Source of the DNA: Dermabacteraceae bacterium TAE3-ERU5
GTDB lineage: Bacteria; Actinomycetota; Actinomycetes; Actinomycetales; Dermabacteraceae
DNA length: 64,000 nucleotides
NCBI GenBank assembly: GCA_019218375.1
Contig: JAHUUK010000009.1
Location: 1 to 64,000 of the forward strand
Reading direction: 5' to 3'
Under the pieces are notes generated by a model. That model saw nothing but the letters and a program-made list of their open reading frames with translations. It ran no database searches and was not told where the DNA came from. Position numbers and translations under genes: made by a program. Positions 20,668 to 31,695 of the stretch are shown piece by piece; the stretch's first letter is position 1, and the number at the start of each line of letters is the position of its first letter.

Positions 20668-23406
20668 CTATTTTTCGGGCTCGGCCTCCGGGGAAGCCGA
20701 TTCCGGGGTTACTACCTGCCCAGCGACAGTAACCTCGGGAGTCTCATGATGCGTCGATGCCGCAGCGGCGATAGAGGCGATGGTCGCGCGCGCGATCTCT
20801 CGTGCCTTATCGTCATTTGCCAGCACCTGCACGTCAGAAGCGGTTTTTTCATCTACCAGTTCGGCCACCGCTTCTTTCGCGCTACCGCGGCTGCCACGCT
20901 TCGCCCTGGCCGCCTTGCGGGAACGCTTGGCTCCCTGCGCGGGAGCCTCCTTCTCCTGCTGCGCCGGAGTCGGAGCGGTGTTTCCCTGCATATCAATCAC
21001 GATGCCGCGGCCGTGACACTGCTCGCAGTCGTGCGAGAACATCTCTACCAGGCCCTGGCCGACGCGCTTGCGCGTCATCTGCACCAGCCCCAGGCTCGTC
21101 ACCTCGGCCACCTGATGCTTGGTGCGGTCCCGGGAAAGGCACTCCACCAAACGGCGCAGTACCAGATCGCGGTTGGCCTCCAGCACCATGTCGATGAAGT
21201 CCACGACGATGATGCCGCCGATGTCGCGCAGACGCAGCTGGCGCACGATCTCCTCGGCCGCTTCCAGGTTGTTCTTAGTGACCGTCTCTTCGAGGGAGCC
21301 GCCAGCGCCGGTGAACTTGCCGGTGTTGACGTCGATCACGGTCATGGCCTCGGTGCGGTCGATCACCAGCGAGCCGCCGGAGGGCAGGTAGACCTTGCGG
21401 TCCATCGCCTTCAGAAGCTGCTCATCGATGCGATGCTTCGCGAACACGTCCTTTTCACCGACGTGCTTCGTTACGCGATCAAGCAGGTCGGGCGCTACAG
21501 AACTGACGTACTCATGCACGTTCTTGTAGGCCTTATCGCCCTGCACGATGAGCGAGGTGAAGTCCTCGTTAAAGACGTCGCGCACAACCTTGATTACCAG
21601 GTCAGGCTCGTTCGAAAGCAGCGCCGGAGCACTCTTGCTGCCCTGCGCCTTCTGGATGCGCTCCCATTCCTTACGCAGGCGCTCGACGTCGCGGGTCAGC
21701 TCTTCCTCGCTCGCTCCCTCGGCGGCGGTACGCACGATCACGCCGGCATCCTTGGGGATGATCTGACGCATGATCTTCTTCAGGCGAGTGCGCTCGTTGT
21801 CGGGCAGCTTGCGGGAGATACCGGTCATGGAACCGCCCGGCACGAACACCAGGTAGCGCCCCGGAAGGGAAATCTGGCTGGTCAGGCGCGCGCCCTTATG
21901 GCCGATCGGGTCCTTGGTTACCTGAACCAAAACCGAATCGCCGGGCTTAAGCGCAAGTTCGATGCGACGCGGCTGGCCGTCCAGGCCCGCAGCATCCCAA
22001 TTGACCTCGCCCGCATAGAGCACGGCGTTGCGGCCACGATCGATGTCCACGAAGGCCGCTTCCATGCTGGGGAGCACGTTCTGCACCTTGCCGAGGTAGA
22101 CGTTGCCGACCATCGAGGTCTGCGACTTACGCGCCACGTAATGCTCAACCAGGATGTCGTCTTCCAAAACCGCGATCTGGGTGCGTCCGGCGGCTTCACG
22201 CACAACCATGGAGCGCTTAACGGCCTCGCGGCGCGCCAGGAACTCGGCTTCCGTGATCGAGGTCTTGCGTCGACCGGCATCGCGGCTTTCCCTGCGGCGC
22301 TGCTTCTTGGCTTCCAGACGGGTGGACCCCTTTACGGCCCGCACCTCGTCACGGCCCTCGCGCACACGTACAACGGTGTTCGGCGGATCATCGCTCGCGG
22401 CATCATCGCCCTGGCTGCCGTTGCGGCGGCGACGACGGCGACGGCGAGTGGTGCTTTCCCCGGCCTGTTCATCCTCACCGGTTTCGTCGTCCGCAGCCTC
22501 CTCTGAGGTCTCTTCTTCCGAGGTCTCTTCGCTGCGTCCCCGACCACGGCGTCCACGCCCGCCTCGGCGGCGGCGTCGGCGCTGCGGCGCACCCTCTTCG
22601 TTTTCTTCGTCTTCCGTCTCTTCCGCATCTTCCGCCGCGCTTTCGTCTGCGACGGTGGCTACCGGGGCCTGGAATAGCAGCGAGGCGAAGTCCAAACGTG
22701 CAGCGTTGCTATCCTGCGCGGTCTCTTCCTGCGGCGACGCCTTATGCTGCTGGGCCAAATTAGCCAGGTCGTCCAAGACGGCGGAGCGGTCTTCGCGCTC
22801 GGGCGCCACAAAGACGGGAGCCGAAGTAGTTTTGCTGGTTTCTTCGTTTGCGGAAGCGCTTTCAGCAGCCTCCTGCTTCTCACCCTGCGCTTCCTTGCGC
22901 TTTCCGCGGCTGCTGCGGCGCTTGCGCTGCGACTGGCGCGGTTCTTCCTGCGCGGTGGCCGCATCATCGCTCTTGGGGGCCTCGCCGTCTGCCACCTTGG
23001 CTTCCGGTTCGGATGAATTCTGCGAGCCACCTACGGCGGGCTGCGTTTTTTCGTCGGGCTCCACGGCGCGGCGGGAATTACGGGTCCGGCGCGGCTTTTG
23101 CGCGAGCACCTCTTCAGCCACAGCTTCCTGGGGAGCAACCGAGGTCTTTGCCTCCGTTTCCTTCGCTACCGGGGCCACCACCTGCGGGGGACCCGCCGGA
23201 GCCGCCACCGCGCGGCGCGGCCTGCGCTGCGGGGCCTCCGTCACTACCACGGCCTCCGCAGGCTGAGCCGCCACCATGGTGGATCGCGTGTCAGCGGAGA
23301 CCGGGGGCACCTCTACGCTCGGGGCGCTTGCGGGGGCCGTTGCCCGCCGACGCTCACGCCTGCGGGGCGTTCCCTCGGCGTGGGGGGTTTCGCTATGTTC
23401 AGCCAT
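20668..23406 (-). CDS. rne: Ribonuclease E/G family endoribonuclease
   Basis: This is the main endonuclease of mRNA decay and rRNA/tRNA processing in actinobacteria. In the 912-residue protein the first 375 or so residues are a low-complexity extension of acidic and arginine-rich blocks (QRRRRRRGGRGRRGRGR), as in mycobacterial RNase E. Next come the S1 domain (SMVGNVYLGKVQNVLPSMEA) and the DNase I-like catalytic part with metal ligands in MTVIDVNTG and IVVDFIDM. The zinc-link cysteines are 794 and 797 (CEQCHGRG). The C-terminal tail is basic. An AAAGGAG site precedes the ATG. Confidence 0.95.
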   Translation of the reverse strand: MAEHSETPHAEGTPRRRERRRATAPASAPSVEVPPVSADTRSTMVAAQPAEAVVVTEAPQRRPRRAVAAPAGPPQVVAPVAKETEAKTSVAPQEAVAEEVLAQKPRRTRNSRRAVEPDEKTQPAVGGSQNSSEPEAKVADGEAPKSDDAATAQEEPRQSQRKRRSSRGKRKEAQGEKQEAAESASANEETSKTTSAPVFVAPEREDRSAVLDDLANLAQQHKASPQEETAQDSNAARLDFASLLFQAPVATVADESAAEDAEETEDEENEEGAPQRRRRRRGGRGRRGRGRSEETSEEETSEEAADDETGEDEQAGESTTRRRRRRRRNGSQGDDAASDDPPNTVVRVREGRDEVRAVKGSTRLEAKKQRRRESRDAGRRKTSITEAEFLARREAVKRSMVVREAAGRTQIAVLEDDILVEHYVARKSQTSMVGNVYLGKVQNVLPSMEAAFVDIDRGRNAVLYAGEVNWDAAGLDGQPRRIELALKPGDSVLVQVTKDPIGHKGARLTSQISLPGRYLVFVPGGSMTGISRKLPDNERTRLKKIMRQIIPKDAGVIVRTAAEGASEEELTRDVERLRKEWERIQKAQGSKSAPALLSNEPDLVIKVVRDVFNEDFTSLIVQGDKAYKNVHEYVSSVAPDLLDRVTKHVGEKDVFAKHRIDEQLLKAMDRKVYLPSGGSLVIDRTEAMTVIDVNTGKFTGAGGSLEETVTKNNLEAAEEIVRQLRLRDIGGIIVVDFIDMVLEANRDLVLRRLVECLSRDRTKHQVAEVTSLGLVQMTRKRVGQGLVEMFSHDCEQCHGRGIVIDMQGNTAPTPAQQEKEAPAQGAKRSRKAARAKRGSRGSAKEAVAELVDEKTASDVQVLANDDKAREIARATIASIAAAASTHHETPEVTVAGQVVTPESASPEAEPEK

Positions 23407-23732
23407 CTGGCTGCTCCTTTTAGTCCTCTGTTCCAGCGCATCCTGGACGGGACGGTCATCGCCCTGAGGGCGGAAGTCATGTGCCCCCTGCGTGTCGCGC
23501 GGCTCCTGGGAAGAGCGCAGCGTGTCAACCGTGCCGCCGCAGTCACGAATGTAGCTGCGTCACCAAAATTCGGTAACGCGCGCAAACTGTCGGCACGGGC
23601 AGGGGTTCCTCCGCCCGATGCGGGACGGAGAAGCGCTCCCCCCAGTATGGCACAGCACACCGCCGCACCAGAGGAAGGGGGAAGAAAACGAGTCCGACAC
23701 CAAAAAAAGACTGATAAACTGACAAGGCGTCA

Positions 23733-23752
23733 GAACAGTGTTGCCGCTGTTC
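23733..23752. promoter_or_regulatory. Inverted repeat upstream of cydA
   Basis: GAACAG and CTGTTC, separated by 8 bp, form a dyad of the size bound by many dimeric regulators. It sits 119 bp before the cydA ATG. The regulator is unknown; the response regulator encoded downstream of the operon is one candidate. Confidence 0.35.
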
Positions 23753-23788
23753 AAAGCGCATTTTTTTTGCTTTCAAGGTGCCTTTTTC

Positions 23789-23814
23789 GGGACTTTCGTC
23801 CCAATTTATTTTTC
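23789..23814 (+). terminator. Small terminator-like hairpin in the cydA leader
   Basis: GGGAC-TTTC-GTCCC is followed by AATTTATTTTT. The stem is only 5 bp, so this is weak evidence for early termination before cydA. Confidence 0.35.
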
Positions 23815-23870
23815 GGTACCGGATAGCGTACAGATCATCACTACCACTCCGTCCTAATATAAGGAACCAA

Positions 23871-25445
23871 ATGGAAGCCCTCGACCTTGCACGGTGGCAA
23901 TTCGGTGTAACTACCGTCTACCACTTTATCTTCGTGCCGCTGACCATCGGTCTTTCGCTGCTCGTGGCGATCATGCAGACCTACGCCTACCGCGCGAAGG
24001 ATGCTGAGACTCGCACTGCCTGGGTGAAGATCACCAAGTTCTTCGGCCAGCTGCTCATCATTAACTTCGGCATCGGCATCGCCACCGGCATCGTGCAGGA
24101 GTTCCAGTTCGGCATGAACTGGTCAAAGTACTCCATCTTTGTTGGTGACATCTTCGGTGCTCCGCTCGCGCTCGAAGGCCTGCTCGCCTTCTTCATGGAA
24201 TCCACCTTCCTCGGCCTGTGGATCTTCGGCTGGGACAAGCTGCCCAAGAAGATTCACCTGCTGAGCATCTGGATGGTAGCTCTCGGCACCGCTCTCTCGG
24301 CCTACTTCATTCTGGCCGCGAACTCTTTCATGCAGCACCCCGTAGCCGCTGTGTTCAACCCCGAAACGGGACGCGCTGAGCTCGATCCGAGCCAGGGCGG
24401 CATCTGGGGCGTGCTCACCAACAGCACCACCCTCGCTACTTTCCCCCACGTCATCACCGGCGCTTGGCTGGTGGCTGCCTGCTTCGTTACCGGCGTTGCC
24501 ACCTGGCACATGATCCGCCACACCCGTAAGGGCCAGCAGCTCGGCACGGACACCGCCGAGGGCGCTGCGCACATCAAGCAGGCCCGCACCATCTTCCGCC
24601 CGGCCGTGCGCTTCGGCGTGGTCTGGATGCTCATCGCTGGCGTCGGCCTCGGTATCAGCGGTGACGCGCAGGCAAAGCTCATGTTTGAGCAGCAGCCCAT
24701 GAAGATGGCTTCCGCCGAGGCTCTCTGCCACACCGAAAAGGGTGCTTCCTTCTCCCTGCTTACCCTGGGTGGGCCCGACGCTTTCAATGCTAACTGCGAC
24801 AACGTGCGTGACGTCATCACCGTTCCCTACCTGCTTTCCGTTCTAGCCACCTGGGATCCGCACGCGGAGCTGAAGGGTGTTACCGAGCTGGAGAAGGAAT
24901 ACAAGGAAAAGTACGGCGAGACCGTCACCATGCCTGACGGCAGCGTGGTTCCCGCTAACTACACCCCCGATCTGTTCACCTCTTACTGGTCCTTCCGTCT
25001 GATGATCGGCCTGGCCGGTTTCGCCGCCGTGCTCGCGCTGTGGATGCTGTGGGTGACCCGCGAAAAGAAACAGGGCGATGAGATCTCCAAGCAGGGGCTT
25101 ACCACCTCCAAGCTGGTTTCCACTTTCGCTCTGATCGCAATTCCGATGCCGTTCCTGGCTAACTCGTTTGGCTGGATCTTCACCGAAGTTGGCCGTCAGC
25201 CGTGGGTAGTTGCCCCGAACCCGACGGGCGATCCGATGGTGCGCCTGATGACCATGCAGGGCGTGTCCAACCACCCCTCCTGGATCGTGGTTACCTCGCT
25301 GGTGGTGTTCACCCTGCTCTACGGTGTGCTCGCAGTAGTCTGGTATCAGCTGATGCACCGCTACTCGGCCAAGGGCATTTCCCTCCCGGCCCCCGATGAA
25401 GACAAAGCGGACGCGAAAGAAGTTTCGCTGTCCTTCGGGTACTGA
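23871..25445 (+). CDS. cydA: Cytochrome bd ubiquinol/menaquinol oxidase subunit I
   Basis: This membrane subunit of the high-affinity terminal oxidase binds haems b558, b595 and d, oxidises quinol and reduces oxygen. The 524-residue protein has His18 (TTVYHF, equivalent to the b595 ligand) and the conserved GWIFTEVGRQPW motif near residue 435. It has nine or so transmembrane helices with a short Q-loop, typical of Gram-positive enzymes. The ATG at 23871 with AAGGA upstream is chosen over earlier in-frame codons. It is first gene of cydABDC. Confidence 0.96.
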   Translation: MEALDLARWQFGVTTVYHFIFVPLTIGLSLLVAIMQTYAYRAKDAETRTAWVKITKFFGQLLIINFGIGIATGIVQEFQFGMNWSKYSIFVGDIFGAPLALEGLLAFFMESTFLGLWIFGWDKLPKKIHLLSIWMVALGTALSAYFILAANSFMQHPVAAVFNPETGRAELDPSQGGIWGVLTNSTTLATFPHVITGAWLVAACFVTGVATWHMIRHTRKGQQLGTDTAEGAAHIKQARTIFRPAVRFGVVWMLIAGVGLGISGDAQAKLMFEQQPMKMASAEALCHTEKGASFSLLTLGGPDAFNANCDNVRDVITVPYLLSVLATWDPHAELKGVTELEKEYKEKYGETVTMPDGSVVPANYTPDLFTSYWSFRLMIGLAGFAAVLALWMLWVTREKKQGDEISKQGLTTSKLVSTFALIAIPMPFLANSFGWIFTEVGRQPWVVAPNPTGDPMVRLMTMQGVSNHPSWIVVTSLVVFTLLYGVLAVVWYQLMHRYSAKGISLPAPDEDKADAKEVSLSFGY

Positions 25446-25476
25446 TCGATCAGGTCACTGGAAAGGACACTGAATC

Positions 25477-26541
25477 ATGGATATGACTTTTCTCCAGATC
25501 CTCTGGTTTACCCTGATCGCGGTACTCTTCACCGGGTATTTCGTACTGGAAGGGTTCGACTTCGGCGTCGGCATGAACGTGCTGTTCCTAGGCAAGGGCG
25601 ATGAGGAGCGCAGGAGCGTCATGCTGCGCACCATCGGCCCGGTCTGGGACGGTAACCAGGTTTGGCTGCTAGTCGGCGGCGGCGCTATGTTCGCCGCTTT
25701 CCCGGCCTGGTACGCGACCCTCTTCTCCGGCTTCTACCTGGCCCTGCTGGCCATCCTCGTGGCGCTGATCGTGCGCGTCTGCGCATTCAAGTACCGCGAG
25801 AAGTCGGATTCTGCGCGCTGGCGCAAGAACTGGGACCTGATGCACTTCATCGGCGGCTTCTTCCCCTCCCTGCTGTGGGGCGTCGCTTTCGCCAACATCG
25901 TGCAGGGCGTAGCGATCAACAAGCAGGGCGAGGTCACCACCTCCCTGCTCGGGCTGCTGAACCCGTTCGGCCTGCTCGGCGGCGTCGTCTTCGTGCTCCT
26001 GTTCTGGATGCACGGCACCCTCTACCTCGCTATTAAAACCGACGGAGAGGTGCGTGCGGACGCCAACAAGCTGGCGGGCAAGCTGTTCATCCCGGTAATC
26101 CTCGGCGGTGCCGTATTCCTGGTTTGGGCCCAGCTCATGTTCAACGGCAAGGCGCTCACCTGGATCCCGCTGGTACTGGCGGCGCTTTCCCTGATCGCGC
26201 TGATCCCGCTGCACGCCAAGAAGCTCGAAAAGGCCACCTTCTGGACCTCTTGCTTCGCTATCGCAATGGCATCGGCGTTCCTGTTCGGCTGCCTGTTCCC
26301 GAACGTGCTGCCCTCGAACCCGGTTCCCGCCAACTCACTGACCATCCCGGCCGCGGCCTCCACCGAATACACCCTGCTGGTGATGACCGTCGCGACCGTG
26401 CTGATCCTGCCGTTCGTGCTGGCCTACCAGATCTGGGCCTACTGGGTGTTCCGTGACCGCATCTCGGATAGCTCCGCGCCCGCCGAAAACGGTCTACTCT
26501 TGAAGGCGAAAGAAAAGATCGCTCAGAACTTCTCGGTCTGA
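25477..26541 (+). CDS. cydB: Cytochrome bd oxidase subunit II
   Basis: This is the second core subunit of the bd oxidase, pairing with CydA. The 354-residue protein has about eight transmembrane helices. The conserved start LQILWFTLIAVLFTGYFVLE continues into GFDFGVGM, and VWDGNQVWLLVGGGAMFAAFP follows. It lies 31 bp after cydA with a GAAAGGA ribosome binding site. Confidence 0.96.
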   Translation: MDMTFLQILWFTLIAVLFTGYFVLEGFDFGVGMNVLFLGKGDEERRSVMLRTIGPVWDGNQVWLLVGGGAMFAAFPAWYATLFSGFYLALLAILVALIVRVCAFKYREKSDSARWRKNWDLMHFIGGFFPSLLWGVAFANIVQGVAINKQGEVTTSLLGLLNPFGLLGGVVFVLLFWMHGTLYLAIKTDGEVRADANKLAGKLFIPVILGGAVFLVWAQLMFNGKALTWIPLVLAALSLIALIPLHAKKLEKATFWTSCFAIAMASAFLFGCLFPNVLPSNPVPANSLTIPAAASTEYTLLVMTVATVLILPFVLAYQIWAYWVFRDRISDSSAPAENGLLLKAKEKIAQNFSV

Positions 26542-26549
26542 CATCACCT

Positions 26550-26565
26550 AAGGAGGTCGACCATT
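26550..26565 (+). promoter_or_regulatory. Ribosome binding site that decides the cydD start
   Basis: AAGGAGG at 26550-26556 is followed by a 6-nt spacer and ATT. No ATG, GTG or TTG lies within reach in frame, so initiation at a rare AUU codon is implied. Confidence 0.65.
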
Positions 26566-28209
26566 TCCGGTCGTACCGCATCCGACACGCGCCGTCCGCC
26601 GCTGGATCCTCGTTTGATCCGGAATGTGCGGGCGGCGCGCGTTCACGTTATTCGTACCGCGCTACTCGGTCTGTTGCAGACCGTTTGCGTTATCGCCACC
26701 GCGCTCTCGCTCGGCAAGATAGGTGCCGACCTGCTCGTATCCGGCGTTTCCCCGCTGGCAAGCCCCGGCCTGCTTAGCATCGCGGGAGCCTCGCTCGCGC
26801 TGCGCGCACTGGCGCTCTTTGGCCAGCAGCGTTATGCCCACCGCGCGGCGACCGATACCATTTCGCAGCTTCGCACCGACCTGGTGCGCCACACCGCCCA
26901 AACCTCGCCTCGGGTTTTGGCCGACCGGGGGGCCGACGTTACCGCGCTGGCCACCAAGGGGCTTGATAACCTGCGCCCCTATCTGACCTCTTACGTGCCC
27001 CAGCTGCTGCTCGCCGCGACCGTCACCCCGATCTGCCTCGCAGTGGTCGCCTACCTGGATCTCACCAGCGCCTTGATCGCGGGCTTCACCCTGCCGCTGA
27101 TTCCGGTTTTCATGATCCTGATCGGCCTGCTTACGCAGGGGCGCAGCGAACGGCTGCTACTCGATATGCGCACGCTGTGGTCTCAGGTGATGGACCTGGT
27201 GCAGGGGCTGCCCACCCTGCGGGCGCTGGGCCGCGAGCACGGCCCGGAAAAAACGGTGCACGAGCTAGGCACTCGGCACTACAACTCCACGATGGGTACG
27301 CTGCGTTACGCGTTCCTGTCGGCCATGGCACTTGAGCTGCTGGCCACCCTGTGCGTGGCCCTGATCGCGGTCAGTATCGGCCTGCGGTTGGTCGCGGGAA
27401 ACATGGAGCTTTTCCCTGCCCTCGCGGTGCTGATTCTGGCCCCGGAAATCTACCTCCCGCTGCGGCAGGTAGGCGCGCAATTCCACGCCTCCACGGACGG
27501 CCTGGCCGCTTTGGATGAAACTTTCACTCTGCTGGCTACCCCGCTGGTTAGCGATGGCGATGCCCCCTGCCCTCCCCTGGCGTCCTCCCCCATCACGGTC
27601 ACCGGTCTATCCGTAAAAAGCCGCAACGGCTACGCCCCGCACGATCTTTCTTTCACCGTTAAGCCCGGCAGCATAGTCGCGCTGGCAGGCGCGAACGGTA
27701 GCGGCAAGTCCACCACCGTCCACGCCATGCTGGGGCTCTTACCGCCCGATAGCGGCGAGGTTCGCTACGGTGATACCCCGCTGACACAGATCTCCCGAGA
27801 GACTCTCTGGAACCAGCTTCAGTGGCTACCGCAGCGCCCGCTACTCGCTCCCGGCACGGTGCGGGAACTGCTCGGTGCCAGCCACAGCGAGGCGGAACTA
27901 TTAAACGCCTGCAAGCTGACCGGATTCGACCATGTGCTTAACGGGCTAGACGACGGGCTCGATTCTCCGATCGGGCGCGATGGCGTGGGCCTTTCCGTCG
28001 GCCAACGCCAGCGTTTGGCACTGACTCGCTGCCTGCTCACCCCCTCTCCCCTGGTGATTTTGGACGAACCGACGGCCCACCTCGATGCCGGTTCCGAGGC
28101 GACCATCGCGGCCGTGGTGCGCGAGCTCTCCCGCCAGGGAAGAACCGTTTTGCTGGTGGCCCACCGCAAGTCCCTGCTTAACCTGGCCGACAAGGTGGTG
28201 ACGCTGTGA
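26563..28209 (+). CDS. cydD: Heterodimeric ABC exporter subunit CydD, ATT start
   Basis: CydD with CydC exports cysteine/glutathione-type thiols (and is linked to haem) and is needed to assemble cytochrome bd. The protein has six N-terminal membrane segments and a nucleotide-binding domain with Walker A GANGSGKST, signature LSVGQ (not LSGGQ) and Walker B LVILDEP. The best start is ATT at 26563, 6 nt after a perfect AAGGAGG. It restores the conserved N-terminal PPLDPRLIRN; the first conventional codon (TTG 26614) would cut through this motif and has no ribosome binding site. The length is 548 residues. Confidence 0.9.
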   Translation: MSGRTASDTRRPPLDPRLIRNVRAARVHVIRTALLGLLQTVCVIATALSLGKIGADLLVSGVSPLASPGLLSIAGASLALRALALFGQQRYAHRAATDTISQLRTDLVRHTAQTSPRVLADRGADVTALATKGLDNLRPYLTSYVPQLLLAATVTPICLAVVAYLDLTSALIAGFTLPLIPVFMILIGLLTQGRSERLLLDMRTLWSQVMDLVQGLPTLRALGREHGPEKTVHELGTRHYNSTMGTLRYAFLSAMALELLATLCVALIAVSIGLRLVAGNMELFPALAVLILAPEIYLPLRQVGAQFHASTDGLAALDETFTLLATPLVSDGDAPCPPLASSPITVTGLSVKSRNGYAPHDLSFTVKPGSIVALAGANGSGKSTTVHAMLGLLPPDSGEVRYGDTPLTQISRETLWNQLQWLPQRPLLAPGTVRELLGASHSEAELLNACKLTGFDHVLNGLDDGLDSPIGRDGVGLSVGQRQRLALTRCLLTPSPLVILDEPTAHLDAGSEATIAAVVRELSRQGRTVLLVAHRKSLLNLADKVVTL

Positions 28210-29924
28210 AGCAGCAAGATTCCCTGGATCGCGCGGTAGCTCTGCTGCAGATCCGCAGGTCCTCGCTGGTCGCTGCGGTAGTGGCAGCTACCGCAACCTT
28301 CCTGGCCGGTTACACGCTGGCCGTGGTTTCCGCGTGGCTGGTTACTACCTCCTGGACGCAGCCTCCCGTGCTAACGCTCACCGTGGCGGTGGTTTCGGTG
28401 CGTGCCCTGGGTATTTCTCGCGGCGTATTCCGTTACATGGATAGGCTGCTCACGCACTCCACCGCGCTGCGCGGCGTGGTGGAGCTGCGCACCGGACTAT
28501 ATTCGCTGCTGGCAGACCGCGACGACGATACGCTCTTTAGGCTGCGCCGCGGTGATCTGCTGGCCCGACTCGGTAACGATGTGGACGAACTCGGCGACCA
28601 CATCATTAAGGCCGTAGTTCCCGCCCTGGTGGCAGCCGTGATGGCCGTGTTGGTAACCGTCTCCATCCTGCCGTTCTCCCTCTTTGCTGGCATCAGCCTG
28701 TTGCTGGCACTGCTGTTTAGCGCCGTCGTCGGCCCCTACGCCTCCTACCGTTCCGCGCAGGTCCACGAGAGCGCGGCGCTGGAATCGCGCGGCGAAGTGG
28801 TGGCGCAGACCCTGACCGTGCTGGATGACGCCGCCGCTCTGCGTGTGCAGGGGCGTCTCACCGAACAGTGCGATCAACTCACTGCCGCGCAGGAAAGTTT
28901 TGATGCCGCCCTGGACAGGGCCGCCTGGCCTTCTGCGGTAGCGCAGGCGGCCACCCCGTTTGCGGTTACGCTCGCCGTCCTCGGCTCGCTGTGGGCCGTC
29001 TTCCCGATCTGGCAGTCCGGTGCCAGCGCGGGAGTGATCGGTATTCTCTTGCTCGCTCCGCTTTCTGCTTTCGAGGCGCACGGCGCCCTCGCGGGGGCGG
29101 CCAGCCAGCTTGCCCGCAGCAGGGCTGCCGCGCGCAGGCTTGCTGCCTTCACCGGCGTCACGGAAGCGCCGACGAGCCGGGCAGAGACGGTCGGCACCGA
29201 CGTGATAGCGACTTCCCTGACGACCGGCTACAGCGAAGCCAAGCCTCTCAGCAGCGGCATAGATCTGCGCATCACTCCCGGCTCCCGCATCGCGGTGGTG
29301 GGCGATTCCGGCATCGGTAAAACTACCCTGCTACTCACCCTGGCGGGGCTGGTGCGCCCGCTTGCGGGAAGCGTCACCCTGGGCGGGGTGGAGAGCACGC
29401 AGATCGGCACCGCAGATGCGAGCGCGATCGCCGTCTGCTACGCGGAGGACGCGCACGTTTTTTCAACCACGCTGCGCGAGAACCTGCGCGTGGTTAAGCA
29501 CGGGCTAACTGACGAAGAGCTGATCTGCGCCCTCGCCAAAGCCGGGCTCGGGGATTGGTTTGAGAATCTTTCCGACGGCCTTGATACCCAGCTCGCGGCG
29601 GGCGCGCTATCGCTTTCCGGCGGCGAGAGACGCCGCCTGCTGCTAGCGCGCGCGCTTTTGCGCAACGCCCCCGTGACGCTGCTGGACGAGCCTACCGAGC
29701 ACATGGACATGCAGCAGGGAGACGCCCTCCTGCACGCCCTGCTGACGCGGGAGAACGGCATTTTTTCGCCGCAAAACGCGGTCGTAGTAGTGACGCATAG
29801 GGTCTCTGCGCTGCAAAGCGCGCCAGACATCATCGCGCTTGGCAAAAACGGTATCCTCGTACGCGGAACCTACGCCGATATAGCGGCGCACCCCGAATGC
29901 GCGCATCTTTTCGAGGAGAGCTAA
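28206..29924 (+). CDS. cydC: Heterodimeric ABC exporter subunit CydC
   Basis: This partner of CydD has 572 residues: six membrane segments, then an ATPase domain with Walker A GDSGIGKTT, signature LSGGERRRLLLAR and Walker B VTLLDEPTEHMD. The GTG start overlaps the cydD stop (GTGA), so the two subunits are translationally coupled. It is followed without a gap by the histidine kinase gene. Confidence 0.94.
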   Translation: MKQQDSLDRAVALLQIRRSSLVAAVVAATATFLAGYTLAVVSAWLVTTSWTQPPVLTLTVAVVSVRALGISRGVFRYMDRLLTHSTALRGVVELRTGLYSLLADRDDDTLFRLRRGDLLARLGNDVDELGDHIIKAVVPALVAAVMAVLVTVSILPFSLFAGISLLLALLFSAVVGPYASYRSAQVHESAALESRGEVVAQTLTVLDDAAALRVQGRLTEQCDQLTAAQESFDAALDRAAWPSAVAQAATPFAVTLAVLGSLWAVFPIWQSGASAGVIGILLLAPLSAFEAHGALAGAASQLARSRAAARRLAAFTGVTEAPTSRAETVGTDVIATSLTTGYSEAKPLSSGIDLRITPGSRIAVVGDSGIGKTTLLLTLAGLVRPLAGSVTLGGVESTQIGTADASAIAVCYAEDAHVFSTTLRENLRVVKHGLTDEELICALAKAGLGDWFENLSDGLDTQLAAGALSLSGGERRRLLLARALLRNAPVTLLDEPTEHMDMQQGDALLHALLTRENGIFSPQNAVVVVTHRVSALQSAPDIIALGKNGILVRGTYADIAAHPECAHLFEES

Positions 29925-31004
29925 GTGGCCCTTGCTTGCACTTACGACATCGCCGTAGCCATTTTGAGCGGTGGCGATAATGAAGAGGTGCTGCAGCTGA
30001 TAGTCGAACGCAGCACGGAACTTACCGCTGCCGATACGGCCGCCCTGATACTGCCCGGGATGGACGGCAGCTGGGTGGTGGAGTTCTGCCGCGGAGAAGA
30101 ATCCCTGATCGGTTACACGCTCCCCGACTCTTGCCCTGCCGCCCGGGCATTAAACGCGCAGGACCTGGATACCCTGCGTAATTGCCGGGTAGAGCTACCA
30201 GGTGGCTGGCAGAAAACTCTTGCTTTCCCCATCCCCGGCGCGGCTGAAGTAGCGGGCATCCTGGTGCTGGCCTACCGCGAAGAGCGGCAGGATAAGCATG
30301 TTTATGCGCAGTCCCTCGCTTCCCTGGCAGGATTTTGCCTCGGCATGGCCGACGTACAGGACATGCGGGACACCTCGGATCTCACCGAAGAACGCCACCG
30401 GATCGCGCGAGACCTGCACGATATGGCAATTCAGGAGCTGTTCGCCGTCGGTATGCAGCTGGATAGGATCCGGCAGGAAGCGCACGCCCTAAGCGGCGGT
30501 GAGGCGCTGGTCCGACAGGTAACCGAATCGCTGACGGGCGTGGATCAGACCGTTACGCAGATTAGGCAGATCGTGCAGTCGCTGCGCCGGGATAGCCCTT
30601 CCGCAACGCTCTCGCAGCGCCTGCACCACGAGGCCGCGCTCGCGATTTCCGGGCTCGGGTTCTCCCCGAGTATGCAGATAGATGCGGGTCCGCTCGATCA
30701 GGAAATCGATGATGATCTGGCGCAAGACGTCGTGGCGGTGGTGCGCGAATGTTTGGCTAACGCTGCGCGTCACGCGCACGCCTCCGCTGTAGCGGTTACG
30801 GTGTCGATCTTTTCCGAGGGGGTGGACCGGGTGGTGCGGGTGAACGTTTCCGATAACGGTCGCGGTATCGATCCGACTGTGACCCGTTCCTCCGGGCTTT
30901 CCAACATGCGTTCGCGGGCGCGCAGGCACAACGGCTGGGTGGATGTGCTGCCCCTTGATCAGGGCACCATGGTTTCCTGGCGCGCTACCCTGCCCGCGAA
31001 GTAG
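29925..31004 (+). CDS. GAF-domain sensor histidine kinase (NarL/DevS type)
   Basis: This 359-residue cytosolic kinase has no membrane helix. It has a GAF domain (about 10-145), a HisKA_3 dimerisation domain with the phospho-acceptor His165 in ARDLHDMAIQE, and a C-terminal ATPase with N box RECLANAARHAHA and G box DNGRGID (310-316). This is the NarX/DevS/NreB kinase class, often sensing oxygen, NO or redox. Its GTG follows the cydC TAA directly, so it is co-transcribed with the oxidase operon. The convergent response regulator is the likely partner. The GAF ligand cannot be told from sequence. Confidence 0.88.
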   Translation: MALACTYDIAVAILSGGDNEEVLQLIVERSTELTAADTAALILPGMDGSWVVEFCRGEESLIGYTLPDSCPAARALNAQDLDTLRNCRVELPGGWQKTLAFPIPGAAEVAGILVLAYREERQDKHVYAQSLASLAGFCLGMADVQDMRDTSDLTEERHRIARDLHDMAIQELFAVGMQLDRIRQEAHALSGGEALVRQVTESLTGVDQTVTQIRQIVQSLRRDSPSATLSQRLHHEAALAISGLGFSPSMQIDAGPLDQEIDDDLAQDVVAVVRECLANAARHAHASAVAVTVSIFSEGVDRVVRVNVSDNGRGIDPTVTRSSGLSNMRSRARRHNGWVDVLPLDQGTMVSWRATLPAK

Positions 31005-31068: not shown

Positions 31069-31695
31069 CTACTGCGACCAGCCGTTGCTGTGCCTGCTCG
31101 CGGCCCAGGCGGCGATCTGGGTGCGGCGCTTCAGCCCCATCTTCGCGAGGATCTGGGTGAGGCGGTTCTTCACCGTCTTTTCGGCGATTCCCATCGAACC
31201 GGCGATTTCGCGGTTCGAATGGCCCTCCCCAATCAGTTCCACGATGCGTACCTCAACCTCGGTCAGGCCGAAGCTGGAAAAGGAATCTTCCTCTTCCACC
31301 GCCACGCCCTTCCAGGCGTCGGAGCCTGCCAGGATCTCGCGAATGGCCACCACGATCTCGCTGCTGCGTACGGATTTCAGCAGGAAGCCGCGTGCGCCCA
31401 GTTCCTGCGATGCCTTAACCGCTTCCTGATCGTCGAAAGAGGTGAGCACGATCATGACCTGCTCGGGGTTCAGTTCCTTCGCCGCGCGCATGACGTCAAG
31501 GCCGGTACCGTCTGGGAGCTGCAGATCAACCAGCAGCACTTCGGGTCGCACGGCGGGCAGTCGGCGCAGCGCCTCCTTGACCGTACTGGCCTCAGCGGCC
31601 ACGGAAAGATCGCCCGCGCTATCGATAACATCGATAATTCCGCGTCGGACAACCTCGTGGTCGTCGACCACCATAACCCTGTGCGTTTCGCTCAT
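31069..31695 (-). CDS. NarL/FixJ-family response regulator
   Basis: This 208-residue regulator has a receiver domain (acidic pair D11/D12, phospho-acceptor D57 in LLVDLQLPDG, conserved Thr in VLTS and Lys in LLKSV). A LuxR-type helix-turn-helix follows (about 142-200, LTEVEVRIVELIGEGHSNRE). It resembles DevR/DosR and NarL regulators. It is convergent with the kinase gene next to cydABDC, an unusual split for a cognate pair, and is the best candidate to control the oxidase operon. Confidence 0.87.
   Translation of the reverse strand: MSETHRVMVVDDHEVVRRGIIDVIDSAGDLSVAAEASTVKEALRRLPAVRPEVLLVDLQLPDGTGLDVMRAAKELNPEQVMIVLTSFDDQEAVKASQELGARGFLLKSVRSSEIVVAIREILAGSDAWKGVAVEEEDSFSSFGLTEVEVRIVELIGEGHSNREIAGSMGIAEKTVKNRLTQILAKMGLKRRTQIAAWAASRHSNGWSQ

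Follow-up and report, generated by a model that had tools for sequence, protein, structure and literature searches.

Predicted AUU initiation of cydD in the cytochrome bd operon of a Dermabacteraceae bacterium, and a likely recurrence of weak cydD starts in Mycobacterium

In the cytochrome bd operon of Dermabacteraceae bacterium TAE3-ERU5, a perfect Shine-Dalgarno (SD) sequence ahead of cydD is followed by an ATT codon, which raises the question of where translation of this gene begins and of what an AUU start would mean for the relative supply of the oxidase and of its exporter. We addressed this question in the window, by which we mean the whole 64,000-nucleotide stretch of DNA that was analyzed (contig JAHUUK010000009.1, positions 1 to 64,000; its genome is designated G000), and in related genomes, among them that of a congener from a separate species (G001). 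The features of the locus are as follows.

23871 to 25445, + strand: cydA, cytochrome bd subunit I, with an ATG start (23868, one codon further upstream, was taken for the family search)
25477 to 26541, + strand: cydB, cytochrome bd subunit II, with an ATG start and a TGA stop at 26539-26541 (TIGR00203, 288 bits, cut-off 117)
26550 to 26556, + strand: Shine-Dalgarno sequence AAGGAGG, eight bases 3' of the cydB stop and identical in the sister species G001
26555 to 26577, + strand: predicted hairpin GGTCGACC-(ATTTCC)-GGTCG-T-ACC, with the ATT in the loop and part of the SD in the stem; its significance is weak
26563 to 26565, + strand: ATT (AUU), the putative start codon of cydD
26563 to 28209, + strand: cydD, thiol reductant ABC exporter subunit, 548 aa (TIGR02857, 521.4 bits, curated cut-off 435)
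26599 to 26616, + strand: PLDPRL, conserved N-terminal segment of cydD, its last codon being TTG 26614
28206 to 29924, + strand: cydC, with a GTG start overlapping the cydD stop as GTGA (TIGR02868, 490 bits, cut-off 329)

The four cyd genes are adjacent and lie on the same strand, and the gap of 21 nt between the cydB stop and the ATT leaves little room for a promoter. The product of cydA scored 263 and 243 bits against the NCBIfam subunit-I models, both values being under the cut-offs. Searches returned no sigma-70-like promoter match in positions 23400-30200 of the window, no Rfam family above threshold in positions 23000-31000, and no match in a plasmid collection. Directly 3' of cydC lies a histidine-kinase-like gene (29925-31004, + strand), convergent with a gene for a LuxR-type response regulator (31069-31695, - strand); both were named by eye, and they may act as regulators of the oxidase operon.

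An earlier sequence-only reading had proposed that cydD starts at a rare ATT preceded by a perfect ribosome binding site, and this is borne out by the window, where AAGGAGG (26550-26556) is followed by six bases (TCGACC) and then by ATT (26563-26565). Its description of the remaining frame also holds: no ATG, GTG or TTG occurs in the cydD frame between the cydB stop and TTG 26614, which lies inside PLDPRL as its last codon and is preceded, by eye, by nothing better than GGA. Translation from the ATT yields PLDPRL, a segment that is exact in 32 of 36 family genomes and present as a near variant in the other four. The gene therefore combines a start other than ATG, GTG or TTG with the lack of any canonical in-frame alternative ahead of PLDPRL, and on these sequence grounds the AUU at 26563 is well supported as a real start and is almost certainly the one used by cydD. 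As such, it is an addition to the known small class of non-canonical starts; among the papers listed by searches of open-licence PMC text that named cydD, none concerned its start codon as judged by title or abstract start.

Taken as a whole, we consider it highly probable that cydD is initiated at AUU through its perfect SD, with an expected brake on CydDC. According to this model, cydD, the third gene of a cydABDC operon, would be translated from AUU 26563 by means of the SD located shortly after the cydB stop. AUU pairs imperfectly with the initiator tRNA at its third base, so that IF3 should discriminate against it. Judging from published cases, initiation would fall a few-fold to ten-fold below that of an AUG at this position, a deficit that the SD would make up in part; throttling of CydD by the AUU is thus plausible, and a brake of two- to ten-fold is expected. 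Because cydC overlaps cydD (GTGA) in both species, the brake would probably fall on CydDC relative to CydAB, and not on CydD alone. The translation of cydC is probably coupled to that of cydD, and through this coupling the AUU would keep the CydDC exporter in shorter supply than the CydAB oxidase made from the same mRNA, as might be of use if the cell requires less exporter than oxidase, or is harmed by an excess of exporter. Ribosomes terminating on cydB, eight bases before the SD, may in turn help cydD by re-initiation.

The sequence-only reading had added that AUU starts are known mainly from infC, where IF3 discriminates against them. This is too narrow, since the accessible text of two sources gives AUU starts also for pcnB of Escherichia coli (PMC9410913) and cvfC1 of Staphylococcus aureus (PMC13009471), and infC itself starts with ATC here. 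In four of the five family genomes examined (G000, G001, G005 and G008, loci L131, L132, L130 and L133, with G002 left out), the stretch from the in-frame stop to the ATC is free of ATG, GTG and TTG codons, and in the relatives an SD-like GAGGAG or GGAG lies ahead of that codon. Because infC itself starts with ATC, IF3 feedback on, or discrimination against, weak codons such as AUU is expected in these bacteria. In the available portion of a Streptomyces study, infC is likewise described as starting with ATC, its E. coli counterpart starts with AUU, and IF3 represses a GTC start (PMC5472188).

With regard to the strength of AUU, S. aureus AUU and AUA starts with extended SDs are reported, in the accessible part of the source, at about 10% of AUG, one of them reaching up to 30% in rich medium (PMC13009471). 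The excerpted results of a M. smegmatis reporter with a consensus SD assign 9.8% of leadered reads to ATT, compared with 20.5% to ATG, 22.2% to GTG and 28.7% to TTG, while CTG and ATC obtained 0.03% and 0.2%; ATT with a consensus SD was rated robust there, and the brake could accordingly be mild given 9.8% versus 20.5-28.7% (PMC4633059). These values favor an alternative in which AUU is indeed the start but is near-neutral, the SD and the ribosomes arriving from cydB compensating for it and CydD not being limiting, and this alternative is also in line with the tendency of GUG and UUG starts to come with stronger SDs, as stated in the available text of PMC5622118. We regard it as a realistic outcome, although not the one we would expect: the S. 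aureus starts remain at about a tenth of AUG despite their extended SDs, and weak cydD starts recur in Mycobacterium with signs of retention, as detailed below.

A start further downstream, at ACG 26587, CTG 26602 or TTG 26614, appears improbable. TTG is a permitted start codon and ACG 26587 would preserve PLDPRL, but by eye none of the three codons has a good SD in place, and with any of them the SD at 26550 would serve no gene. Moreover, initiation at TTG 26614 is unlikely because it would delete most of PLDPRL, a segment kept in all 36 family genomes.

Comparison of this codon among close relatives had been suggested as a check, with an ATG or GTG at the same position, together with signs of sequencing error, speaking against the ATT. 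We compared one congener genome, G001 (the genus sample comprises two genomes, the window's own included, with one genome per species), and found that it keeps the identical SD and the ATT, so that the contrary outcome did not appear there. Relative to the window, G001 has one extra base between the SD and the ATT (a spacing of 7 nt versus 6 nt) and one substitution further upstream, and from the ATT to the TTG there are only two base differences, both synonymous. The inserted base shifts the cydB stop out of the cydD frame and places in that frame a TAA overlapping the SD. Over the whole gene, 130 of 353 four-fold sites differ (0.37), and the codon differences comprise 168 synonymous and 28 non-synonymous changes, indicating that cydD is under normal purifying selection and that the two species are well separated. 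The conservation of a single codon at a neutral divergence of 0.37, which would occur by chance with a probability of about 0.25, is weak evidence of selection.

Since G001 keeps the SD and the ATT but has changed their frame relation to cydB, two further alternatives become very unlikely. The first, a sequencing error or strain-level mutation, could draw on the fact that one genome per species was compared, but is largely refuted by the presence of ATT with an identical SD in a separate species and assembly, and we give it very little credence. The second, a cydB-cydD fusion by read-through of the cydB TGA, which in the window precedes the ATT by exactly 24 nt in the same frame, is next to untenable with the G001 cydB stop out of the cydD frame and an in-frame TAA overlapping the SD.

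We then read the cydB-cydD junction in 36 family genomes, including that of the window, taking as the end of cydB, here and in the mycobacterial analyses below, the end of the long open frame at the right place rather than a homology call in each genome. In the 34 genomes from outside the genus, an ATG, GTG or TTG occurs in the region that opens 15 nt ahead of the cydB end and extends downstream, and both members of the genus present ATT, which identifies the AUU of cydD, at the level of these sequences, as a genus-level change limited to the genus within the 36-genome sample. Such changes are rare, for in the accessible text of an ancestral start reconstruction only 1 in 61,358 AUG starts and 1 in 5,080 GUG starts switched to AUU (PMC5622118). 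In another genus of the family, G005 shows a CTGA overlap at the cydB end (L177) with GGAAGG seven bases before the CTG, and both this CTG and a GTG nine codons before PLDPRL are candidate starts of its cydD. The CTGA tetramer alone proves nothing, because it is also found in some other family members, but there an ATG or GTG follows.

The AUU of cydD does not reflect a general habit of the genome. The pattern AAGGAGGN{4,9}ATT has 6 sites in the 1.92-Mb genome versus 16 for the reversed control, and AAGGAGGN{4,9}ATG has 21 versus 22; neither is enriched, and with the SD-ATT pattern unenriched there is no sign of a genome-wide use of ATT starts. With about 6 sites per 3.8 Mb of strand, the chance of an SD-ATT site within 20 nt of a given gene start is about 3e-5, and the position of the SD-ATT at cydD, unlike the bare pattern count, is not due to chance. 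A survey of ATT, ATC and ATA sites in G000 and G001 covered all six ATT sites of G000 and left out three G000 and six G001 sites. Of the six, the cydD site alone heads a long frame with no canonical start in the next two codons; one other precedes a 237-codon frame with a GTG two codons later. An ATA site of G000 (L160/L162) heads a 221-codon frame whose first canonical start lies 13 codons in, and we rejected it as a chance frame: it has no Pfam match, and its G001 counterpart (74% identical) and a short G005 match each hold a TGA. Two near-identical copies of a stretch with AAGGAGGTGGCATT, about 690 bases apart and apparently non-coding, were also observed in G000 (contig C8, positions 9029 and 9722; L123 and L125).

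We also considered whether RNA structure at the AUU might act as a brake in its own right. A local 39-nt fold has a predicted energy of -12 kcal/mol (z -2.5) and places the AUU in the loop in both species, and the two positions of 26555-26577 at which G001 differs from the window lie in the loop and the bulge, leaving the stem unchanged. Longer folds gave z values of 0.16 (71 nt) and, in the window, -3.0 (141 nt, with a strong downstream stem), as against 0.18 in G001 (137 nt), and because the z-score depends on the stretch that is folded, the hairpin was left unproven as a regulatory element. The predicted mean unpaired values at the starts are 0.33 for cydD, 0.26 for cydB, 0.34 for cydC and 0.67 for cydA, the last one measured three bases off. 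The degree of pairing at the cydD start is thus close to that at the cydB and cydC starts, while the cydA start is more open; this argues against a clear separate structural brake at cydD.

To place the AUU in a wider context, we surveyed cydD in 125 loci (30 + 15 + 80, the 80 being taken from among the matches listed). A PLDPRL-like motif was present in 94 of them and absent by pattern in 31. Five of the 94 motif-bearing loci, two of the window's genus and three mycobacteria, are devoid of canonical starts from the in-frame stop to the motif. A junction test on the 92 loci with a cydB-like end identified 10 without a canonical start at or after that end: two of the window's genus, seven of the eight motif-bearing named mycobacteria, and one metagenome-assembled genome labeled Acidobacteria (L058). 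The cydD of this last contig (5001-6629) is 43% identical to the query and has a CTGA junction; its label is possibly a binning error.

We next sampled a larger group evenly to obtain 148 genomes from the genus to which M. attenuatum belongs, and found cydD at E <= 1e-60 in 126; 70 of these 126 loci were read and 56 left out. The motif is borne by 58 of the 70 (the Mycobacterium junctions as a whole are loci L178, L181-L249 and L047-L067), the 12 loci without it by pattern being left out of the classification, and the overlap with the upstream frame reads CTGA in 51, ATGA in 6 and GTGA in 1. Of the 51 CTGA loci, 21 lack any ATG, GTG or TTG from the in-frame stop up to the motif. The remaining 30 do have such a codon upstream of the CTG, but the nearest is within the upstream frame and at least 28 codons ahead of the motif; in one of these loci (L205) a TTG additionally follows the CTG and precedes the motif. 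The CTGA site is supported as a start because the same place reads ATGA in M. stellerae (L063), and because L210 and L211, which have lost CTGA, have ATGA two codons on. These sequences make it likely that cydD starts at the CUG of a CTGA overlap with cydB in 51 of the 58 motif-bearing Mycobacterium loci. In eight named mycobacteria the gene after cydD, taken as cydC from its position, overlaps the cydD stop and starts with ATG in seven and GTG in one, so that CTG is not a habit of the mycobacterial operon.

Codon retention was examined in all 64 overlapping junctions, and not only in those with CTGA; L067 and L215 are the same genome counted twice and L056 was left out by the filter, neither of which changes the picture. 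In CTGA, the C doubles as the third position of the final cydB codon, which is of four-fold type in 62 of the 64 loci (TCC in 48 of 64), so that a silent C to G change would make a GTG start available without changing CydB. Of the 62 four-fold cases, nonetheless, 54 have C at this base, 7 have A and 1 has G, six of the seven A and the one G belonging to differently ended cydB genes, whereas across 82 other four-fold cydB columns G is the most frequent base (58%) and occurs at least twice in every column. The CTGA base is not unique in its degree of conservation, which eight of the 82 columns equal, one of them with C as the conserved base, and the related species are not independent. The pattern is therefore suggestive of CUG being retained and GUG avoided at mycobacterial cydD, with another constraint on this base being possible.

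It is likely that weak cydD starts recur in a second actinobacterial lineage, which suggests a shared reason to limit CydDC. A broader and rather doubtful extension is that weak cydD starts have been selected repeatedly and independently, as AUU in this genus and as CUG in most mycobacteria, to hold CydDC below CydAB. In this view, the mycobacterial CUG, a codon described as near-inactive in a leadered reporter, would depend entirely on re-initiation after cydB, CydD would be made only along with CydB, and the level of IF3 would tune cytochrome bd assembly.

Several known systems resemble the cydD AUU in part. The pcnB gene of E. coli, in another phylum, also has an AUU start, which is said to limit translation, as reportedly indicated by the title of Binns and Masters (2002); to our knowledge, it is not known to set an operon ratio. 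The infC gene shares with cydD a non-NUG start discriminated by IF3, with an SD-like sequence in front in the relatives studied here, but it is autoregulated and encodes IF3 itself, whereas cydD encodes an exporter subunit inside an oxidase operon. In the accessible text of PMC13009471, cvfC1 (AUU) and ccpN (AUA) of S. aureus likewise have conserved non-canonical starts with extended, strong SDs; their starts have been experimentally mapped, with reporter outputs of about 10% of AUG, whereas that of cydD is known from sequence, and cvfC1 is the first gene of its operon whereas cydD is the third. The sigR gene of Streptomyces provides an actinobacterial case of a weak start that is repressed by IF3 and sets the ratio to a neighboring product, but its start is GTC and not ATT, it encodes a regulator and not a transporter, and the effect was demonstrated by experiment, according to the portion available (PMC5472188).

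If the AUU truly limits CydDC, this locus would offer a simple case in which a single operon yields different amounts of an enzyme and of the exporter for its assembly. Gene finders largely assume ATG, GTG or TTG starts, and AUU-type starts are for this reason misplaced in annotation; cydD would here probably be annotated at TTG 26614, with the loss of 17 residues that include most of PLDPRL. Cytochrome bd is a recognized drug-target system, and the mycobacterial CUG pattern, if true, would mean that the N-terminus of cydD needs to be re-checked in many genomes. The likely recurrence in a second lineage lifts the AUU of cydD above a single curiosity.
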